NCBI GenBank assembly: GCA_012514315.1
Contig: JAAZAN010000087.1
Coordinates: forward strand, 1 to 64,000
Source: Chloroflexota bacterium
GTDB taxonomy: Bacteria > Chloroflexota > Anaerolineae > B4-G1
Reading direction: 5' to 3'
Length of the DNA stretch: 64,000 nt
A program made the translations under genes and the position numbers. The notes beneath the pieces are model-generated. The model was given only the letters and a program-made list of their open reading frames with translations. It was not told the origin of the DNA and did not search any database. This document shows, piece by piece, positions 199 to 2,097 of this stretch (position 1 is its first letter; every line of letters starts with the position of its first letter).

Positions 199-1332
199 AT
201 GATACGTAGAGTCGTTGCCTGGATCGTAGTCCTGAGTGTGTTCACCGGTGCGGTGTGTCCGGCGTGGGCACAGAGTGCTGTTGTTGATGGTCTGTCGTGG
301 TTGAAGCTGCAACAGCAACCTGATGGCGGGATCACAAACGGGTTTGCTGAAGGGTCCGATCTGGGGACCACCTGCGACACGATCATGGCTATCGCTGCCG
401 GGGGGCAGCGTGTGAATGAGTGGCTTTCTGACAATGGCAACTCGCCGGTTGACTACCTGGAGGATCAGCTCTCTGCTGGGACGGTGGAGTTGCTTGGACT
501 CAAAGCCAAGGTTGCGCTCACATTGCTTTTTGCGGGTGAGGATCCCACCGCATTTGCCGGTCAGGATCTCGTCAGTGAGCTTGAGGCGAGCTACGAGTCA
601 GCGAGCGGCAGTTACGGGAGCACGGTATACGATCAGGCTCTGATTCTCGTGACGCTCGCGCGGGCGGGCCGACCGCTGCCGGAAGGGGCCATTCAGAACC
701 TGCTGGACAATCAATCGGACGATGGGTCGTGGGCGCTCTTTGGCCCAACTGAGGATAGTGTTGGGGATACAAACACGACTGCCATGGTGATCCAGGCACT
801 CATTGTCGCAGATCGTTTGGATGAGATCGATAGTGCACTGGATTATCTGCACCGTGTGCAGAACGATGACGGCGGGTTTCCCTATCAGAATCCATCCGAT
901 TACGGCACTGACTCGGACGCCAATTCCACGGCCGTCGTGCTTCAAGCGCTCCTGGCAGCGGGGGAGTCCCCGGATGACTGGGCGCCCCAGGGTACCGATC
1001 CAATGCAAGCGCTAGAATTGATGCAGGATACGGACACGGGGGCGTTCTTCTGGCAGGCAGCGGTCGCAACGCCCAATGTTCTGGCCACGGCCCAGGCGAT
1101 TCCCGCTCTGGCGGGCTACACATTGGTTGATCTGCCACAGATTGATGCAGCGACGAGTGGCGAGCCGGTTGTGTCGGCGACACCGTCGCTCCTACCAACA
1201 ACGGGCGGCGCTGGTGCAGCGACACACGTGCTCCTGCTCGTGGGCGGCGCTGTCCTGTGTGCGTCTGGTGTTGTGTTCCTGGTGGCTGCGCGGGCCAGAG
1301 AACGCGGGAGTGTCCGTGTACGGAAATCGTGA
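199..1332 (+). CDS. Secreted alpha-barrel protein with prenyltransferase/squalene-cyclase-like repeats, transcobalamin N-domain-like
   Basis: 377 aa. Residues 1-25 are a signal peptide. About 28-310 hold repeated helical units with motifs such as [15 protein letters not shown] and QNDDGGF, typical of the alpha6/alpha6 barrel shared by squalene cyclases and the N-domain of animal transcobalamin/intrinsic factor. LPTTGG at 332, a hydrophobic helix and an Arg-rich tail resemble a sortase sorting signal, so the protein is probably held at the cell surface. The next gene supplies the matching DUF4430 domain, and a B12-riboswitch ECF transporter follows. Role in corrinoid capture is inferred from fold and context. 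Alternatively it is an unrelated surface terpenoid-cyclase-fold protein. Confidence 0.75.
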   Translation: [377 protein letters not shown]

Positions 1333-1335
1333 CGT

Positions 1336-2097
1336 ATGGCGCTAAGCCCTGTGGTGAGCCGGCTCGCCCGGTACTGGGTCTTCTGTGCGCTGGCCTTGGT
1401 GATCTTTGTGATAGTCAGCGGCGTTGGCGCTCAGGCCCCTCCGGTGAATCGGGCCGGCGTCATCATCGTCCACGGTGATGGCAGCGTCGATGCGCGGTGC
1501 GTTGAGTTCGAGGAGGAATTCATCACCGGCAGTGAGTTGCTGCAGCGTGCCGGGGTCGATATCGTCCTGGATGCGTACGGCGGTTTGGGCTACGGCGTCT
1601 GTCAGATCGACGGGGAAGGTTGTGCGGCGGGGATGGACTGCTTCTGTCAGTGTCGAAGTAGTCCGTGTGCTTACTGGGTCTATTCTCATCTTCAGCCGGA
1701 TGGGACCTGGATGATATCCGGTGTGGGCGCTAGCTCGTGGCACCTCAGGCACGGTGATGTGGATGGATGGGTGTGGGGAGATGGCTCAGAAGCACCTCCG
1801 GATGACATCACTCTGGATGATATGTGCCGCTCCGAGTCAGTCACACCTGCAGTGACCGAAACGAATGAGACATCCCGGTCTGCCGCTCCCGCGCTGCTCT
1901 CTACAGCCACACTTTTCGCTGCAGATGGTTCTCAAGATGGCCCGTCTACTGACACCTCGATAGACGTGTCTGATGACGCATCGGTTCATCGGGGATTTTC
2001 CGAGACAGGGTTGTGGAGCTACGCGATATTCGGCGTCATCATGGTCGGGTTGGTAGTCTGGCTCATCATCTCTTCACTGCGAAGACGAGCGGTTTGA
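1336..2097 (+). CDS. DUF4430 (transcobalamin C-domain-like) membrane-anchored protein
   Basis: 253 aa, beginning three bases after the stop of the barrel gene, so co-transcribed. An N-terminal hydrophobic export signal (about 10-33) is followed by a DUF4430-type domain, about 40-165. The segments GSELLQRAGVDIVL, CQIDGEGC and YWVYSHLQPDGTWMISGVG match the fold that forms the beta domain of intrinsic factor and transcobalamin. Six or more cysteines lie within about 40 residues. A linker leads to a C-terminal membrane helix (about 225-247) and an Arg-rich tail, so the domain faces outward. In animals this domain and the alpha barrel form one protein enclosing cobalamin; here they are separate. 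Function as B12 binder is inference. Confidence 0.75.
   Translation: MALSPVVSRLARYWVFCALALVIFVIVSGVGAQAPPVNRAGVIIVHGDGSVDARCVEFEEEFITGSELLQRAGVDIVLDAYGGLGYGVCQIDGEGCAAGMDCFCQCRSSPCAYWVYSHLQPDGTWMISGVGASSWHLRHGDVDGWVWGDGSEAPPDDITLDDMCRSESVTPAVTETNETSRSAAPALLSTATLFAADGSQDGPSTDTSIDVSDDASVHRGFSETGLWSYAIFGVIMVGLVVWLIISSLRRRAV

Follow-up and report, generated by a model that had tools for sequence, protein, structure and literature searches.

The locus raises the question of why, in an Anaerolineae-type Chloroflexota bacterium related most closely, among named genomes, to MAGs of Anaerolineae and Thermoflexia, two genes for exported proteins, here called P1 and P2, stand directly in front of a riboswitch and the genes of a transporter. 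A preliminary description of this DNA had read the pair as an extracellular two-piece corrinoid trap feeding the transporter, comparable to the two domains of the vitamin B12 (cobalamin) carriers of animals. In the window, i.e., the whole analysed stretch of 64,000 nucleotides, P1, P2, the riboswitch, a terminator and the ECF S, T and A genes follow one another along the + strand between positions 199 and 5976 (Table 1). Both open reading frames of that description are present, and the pair does lie directly upstream of a B12 riboswitch followed by an ECF transporter. The RF00174 aptamer is the sole Rfam match in the 64 kb, and the terminator behind it has a folding energy of -29 kcal/mol (z -5.6). 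All the S, T and A subunits of the importer are encoded within one cluster; the A component also matches ECF_ATPase_1 (2.8e-104), and the start of the S gene, whose reading frame is open from 2395, is uncertain. The window begins at the contig end with 198 bases before P1, and a consensus scan of the region gave 3 promoter-like sites as compared with 0.7 expected. As argued below, P1 and P2 are considered with fair confidence to be parts of a predicted surface corrinoid-binding module that feeds the adjacent ECF importer, P1 as its alpha-like and P2 as its beta-like half.

Table 1. Features of the P1-P2-ECF cluster and the evidence for each.
Feature	Position	Strand	Evidence or size
Promoter-like site TTGACG-17-TATACT, 5' of P1	124..152	+	Consensus scan, 10/12 matches; suggestive only
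P1, exported alpha/alpha-toroid protein, SCO2321-like; proposed alpha half of corrinoid trap	199..1332	+	377 aa
LPTTG sorting-signal-like motif of P1	1192..1206	+	Sequence and hydropathy
P2, exported membrane-anchored SCO2322-like protein; proposed beta half of corrinoid trap	1336..2097	+	253 aa
Transcobalamin-beta-like beta-grasp domain of P2, residues 36-165	1441..1830	+	AlphaFold, Foldseek, hhalign
Cys-rich insertion of P2 (C96, C102, C104, C106, C111), 3' of ligand-side hairpin	1621..1668	+	Cysteine co-occurrence
Promoter-like site TTGACA-16-TATACT, extended -10, before riboswitch	2094..2121	+	11/12 matches
Cobalamin riboswitch aptamer RF00174	2134..2284	+	61.9 bits, E 6.5e-13
Intrinsic terminator, probable riboswitch expression platform	2332..2366	+	14-bp stem and T tail
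ECF S component, substrate-specific membrane subunit	2461..3276	+	PF12822, 2.6e-9
ECF T component, CbiQ-like	3284..4312	+	PF02361, 5.8e-11
ECF A component, two fused ABC ATPase domains	4309..5976	+	PF00005, 2 stretches, 7.2e-62

Export and anchoring of both proteins, as previously described, are borne out by their sequences. Each carries an N-terminal hydrophobic segment and ends in a TM segment (residues 344-362 in P1, by hydropathy, and 230-248 in P2) followed by a basic tail, and in P1 the TM segment is preceded by LPTTG. The source genome encodes two sortases and one full copy of P1. The latter matches the NCBIfam family SCO2321 (NF053823) at 1.1e-32, with 113.5 bits, which is below the curated cut-off of 300. 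Its match to SQHop_cyclase_C is at 3.5e-8, and that to the eukaryotic Cobalamin_bind model PF01122 reaches 16.1 bits, below the cut-off of 25; PF01122 is matched by 8 of 23 P1 homologs (best 1.3e-6). In sequence, P1 is nearer to terpene cyclases than to transcobalamin, with squalene-hopene cyclases nearest. The C-terminal third of P1 is colinear with intrinsic factor up to the inter-domain linker, a match that is weak alone (E 0.23). In a natural P2-P1 fusion from a relative (L065; pLDDT 91.5, pTM 0.91, modelled from an alignment of fused and P1 rows only), Foldseek ranks terpene cyclases first for the toroid, with transcobalamin and intrinsic factor matching at E 4e-4 to 7e-4; being chain-order alignments, these matches are silent on the domain arrangement. 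The description of the first gene as alpha6/alpha6-barrel-like is supported; its alpha/alpha toroid finds the B12 carriers besides the cyclases.

The second gene had been described as encoding a DUF4430 protein, which holds at the level of structure and profile but not of the Pfam model. P2 matched no Pfam family, DUF4430 (PF14478) included, and only 2 of 90 homologous domains matched DUF4430 (best E 0.035). A profile search of the PDB with P2 also gave nothing significant. Since direct sequence searches found nothing significant, structure and profile-profile comparison were needed to reveal the relation. The AlphaFold model of the P2 domain, built on an alignment of 90 sequences, has a pLDDT of 94.2 and a pTM of 0.87. 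Its top 19 PDB matches in Foldseek are confined to 3u7z, a putative metal-binding protein of R. gnavus (Ruminococcus), and to transcobalamin, haptocorrin and intrinsic factor, each matched through its beta domain; the list then falls off to ubiquitin-like folds that are unrelated (E 0.01 to 0.065, probability 1.00 to 0.60). Moreover, hhalign aligned P2 over the whole domain with four DUF4430 proteins of other Chloroflexota (E 3.3e-4, score 31.7), as compared with a score of at most 16.4 in 20 column shuffles. The NCBIfam family SCO2322 (NF040672) is matched by 24 of 25 P2 homologs, above its curated cut-off in 0 of 101 genomes.

According to DSSP, the P2 model consists of E3-10, E16-23, H30-36, E41-45, E51-56, E78-84, E90-92 and E107-113. 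This is a beta-grasp fold with an extra beta-hairpin after the helix, E41-45/E51-56 having been assigned as the hairpin by eye. The Cys-rich insertion lies between this probable ligand-side hairpin and the next strand. Among 128 P2 domains, cysteines 89 and 102 are invariant, and others are present or absent in pairs (96-104, phi 1.00; 106-111, phi 0.98; 55-164, phi 0.75), which implies four predicted disulfides, 89-102, 96-104, 106-111 and 55-164. A role of these cysteines as cobalt ligands is disfavoured by their pairwise loss, a pattern expected of disulfides. Tandem P2 paralogs exist, with two or three P2-like genes per P1 at several loci. Extra P2-like genes that keep only part of the cysteines lie beside P2 at L075:6914-7474, L081:6065-6625 and L011:2156-3124, and two of these three have PEP-CTERM-like tails.

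A survey of genomes for the same gene order, which had been proposed as a check, was carried out on 80 named loci. Among those with enough flank, P1 lies near P2 in 65 of 72 and ECF genes are found at 49 of 55, so that the P1-P2-ECF neighbourhood is far more frequent than chance. Homologs of the pair are also present in Herpetosiphon aurantiacus DSM 785 (CP000875, about 4781061-4783491). At 11 loci, L063 and L065 among them, a P2-like domain and P1 form a single chain with the beta-like domain first. In two independent assemblies, P2 is fused to the S component: a P2-like domain, a Pro/Thr-rich linker and an ECF S component share one ORF of 798-820 aa (L061:6887-9283 and L103:6725-9187). This arrangement suggests that, of the two proteins, P2 is the one adjoining the importer. 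Furthermore, a genuine DUF4430 lipoprotein (1.5e-10 to 1.9e-11) occupies the slot of P2 in ECF operons of three other Chloroflexota genomes (L125, L146 and L147). In L125 and L146, it is flanked by a P1-like toroid on one side and by EcfT, EcfA and S on the other; the L147 contig has no toroid ORF of size beside its DUF4430-EcfT/A/S genes. At L149, toroid and DUF4430 follow each other in a single chain, which is the order of animal transcobalamin.

Synteny links the pair to B12. Of the 38 relatives scanned, 36 carry a cobalamin or AdoCbl riboswitch immediately upstream of P1; the two exceptions are L037, whose P2 is close to the contig start, and L055, where the gene order is different. Unlike in these 36, the riboswitch in the window stands between P2 and S. 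None was found in the 198 bases upstream of P1, where the contig end limits the reach further upstream. Each half of the cluster has a promoter-like site of its own, at 124-152 for P1-P2 and at 2094-2121 for the importer. As the riboswitch is located after P2, P1 and P2 may be outside B12 control here and be produced whatever the B12 supply, with only the importer being switched; the arrangement of the relatives seems to have been re-wired in the window.

The gene content indicates that the host needs corrinoids. The genome has 13 matches to B12-binding domains. In the roughly 90% complete assembly, neither CbiC nor a Peripla_BP_2 protein such as BtuF was found, the latter family being present in 13 of 14 control genomes. 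The only other cobalamin riboswitch of the genome (L150:6840-6993, equal to G000:C192:34839-34992) stands beside a corrinoid adenosyltransferase gene, CobO/BtuR. For these reasons, the P1-P2-ECF cluster is the best candidate for a corrinoid importer of this genome, the gene absences being soft because of the completeness of about 90%. Taken with the riboswitch upstream of P1 in the relatives and with the P2-P1 and P2-S fusions, the B12-dependent genome lacking BtuF-type proteins and CbiC suggests that P1 and P2 very probably serve the neighbouring B12-controlled importer.

From the computed folds, export signals, anchors, gene cluster, riboswitch and fusions, we infer corrinoid binding, a sandwich and a hand-over; of the two-piece trap proposed earlier, export, anchoring and synteny are supported by computation, and the complex itself is predicted. 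P1 and P2 would be exported and each tethered at the C-terminus on the cell surface. The corrinoid would be caught between the P1 toroid and the P2 beta-grasp domain in the manner of transcobalamin and intrinsic factor, and handed from P1-P2 to the S component, after which the T/A module would import it. Cobalamin presumably switches off the importer genes via the riboswitch and terminator. A more specific picture, in which the ECF importer has a dedicated surface trap of two anchored chains clamped by the corrinoid, with P2 docking on S, is offered tentatively and with somewhat less than even confidence. To our knowledge, ECF importers are held as a class not to use soluble substrate-binding proteins. 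If correct, the proposal would show how an ECF importer gains an external binding module and would explain what SCO2321 and SCO2322, two families of no assigned function, do. It would also provide a bacterial system for testing the origin and assembly of animal B12 carriers.

Other explanations of the pair have to be weighed against this module. Only P2 or only P1 might bind the corrinoid, the other being a scaffold or wall spacer and no two-chain sandwich being formed. The tandem P2 paralogs and the loci with two or three P2-like genes per P1 would agree with such a single binder, and beta-domain-only short proteins do exist in fishes (PMC4350170). However, P1 accompanies P2 in 65 of 72 loci and is covalently joined to it in 11 fusions, and a single binder is regarded as unlikely. 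A slightly smaller chance is given to the capture of a non-cobamide for the ECF transporter, for example cobalt, a tetrapyrrole of another kind or just a cobamide precursor. The S protein of the window has no sequence relative among solved structures, so that its substrate is not readable from homology; EcfT and EcfA homologs are annotated as cobalt transport proteins, and no cobalamin riboswitch was detectable at the DUF4430-ECF operons of L125, L146 and L147. Against these points stands the cobalamin riboswitch in 36 of 38 loci. Moreover, the genome lacks CbiC yet has 13 B12-binding domain matches, and without CbiC cobalt alone would not make B12.

The weakest of the alternatives takes P1 as a surface enzyme, either a terpene cyclase or prenyltransferase-like, that has nothing to do with carrying a ligand. 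The best sequence and fold matches of its toroid, squalene-hopene cyclases and drimenyl diphosphate synthases, would suit such an enzyme. Nevertheless, the catalytic DxDD of class II terpene cyclases, which the preliminary description had named as the mark of a cyclase, is absent from all 80 homologous domains of P1 (0/80), and the enzyme reading was rejected on this ground. P1 is also exported, anchored and nearly always beside P2 and ECF genes, and 11 relatives have it in one chain with a transcobalamin-beta-like domain, which leaves a cyclase very improbable.

The surface corrinoid module preferred here shares with animal transcobalamin, intrinsic factor and haptocorrin the combination of an alpha/alpha toroid and a beta-grasp domain. 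The animal carriers are one secreted chain, alpha then beta, whereas P1 and P2 are two proteins tethered to membrane or wall. P2 further differs in its Cys-rich insertion, and the 11 bacterial fusions of the P1/P2 branch have the beta-like domain first. The proposed uptake partner is a bacterial ECF importer instead of endocytic receptors. Whether the carrier is called 'split' is a matter of viewpoint, fused and split forms both occurring in bacteria.

The core idea was already published by Burroughs et al. in 2007, who united the C-terminal domain of transcobalamin, which holds B12 between toroid and beta-grasp domain, with bacterial domains in the SLBB superfamily (PMC1796856). They described transcobalamin-like domains with toroid fusions in either order, surface anchors and CbiO/CbiQ operons in genomes deficient in B12 synthesis, and predicted that these proteins scavenge B12 (PMC1796856). 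Their transcobalamin-like clade was listed in low-GC Gram-positives, planctomycetes and some archaea; Chloroflexi are not mentioned, as judged by a text search (PMC1796856). Like that clade (DUF4430), P1 and P2 are exported and anchored, pair a beta-grasp domain with a toroid, and belong to a CbiO/CbiQ-type operon in a genome with incomplete B12 synthesis, whereas P2 escapes the DUF4430 model and represents a more divergent branch. The P1/P2 branch extends the predicted kind to Chloroflexota; the split state, the disulfide pattern, the riboswitch link and the P2-S fusion are additions, and thanks to the natural P2-S and P2-P1 fusions, single proteins would suffice for testing the 2007 prediction. 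The NCBIfam families SCO2321 and SCO2322, matched by P1 and P2 homologs with scores below the curated cut-offs, carry no functional assignment, and an extension to Streptomyces is by NCBIfam name only. Among the open-access journal papers searched, no experimental work on them as B12 proteins was found.

The cobalamin importer ECF-CbrT of L. delbrueckii is likewise of the ECF type with S, T and A, and a single ECF module serves CbrT together with further S components (PMC5997447). Unlike for CbrT, the T and A genes are here clustered with P1 and P2. We know of no surface binding protein that goes with ECF-CbrT. Surface B12-capture proteins of Bacteroides (PMC6143338; DUF4465, PMC13398666) likewise catch B12 for an importer. 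They belong to other protein families than P1 and P2 and serve the outer-membrane importers of Bacteroides.

Some further arrangements were seen in the survey. No relative of P2 was found among plasmid records; these contained a single DUF4430 relative, from Priestia, whose surroundings show no link to ECF or B12. At L126:7658-8415 and L144:5221-5978, a short DUF4430 match lies beside a small membrane protein with no ECF T/A nearby; that of L126 weakly resembles an S component. Finally, T and A are apparently joined in an ORF of about 910 aa at L040:7737-10478, L052:4295-7024 and L071:2632-5373.
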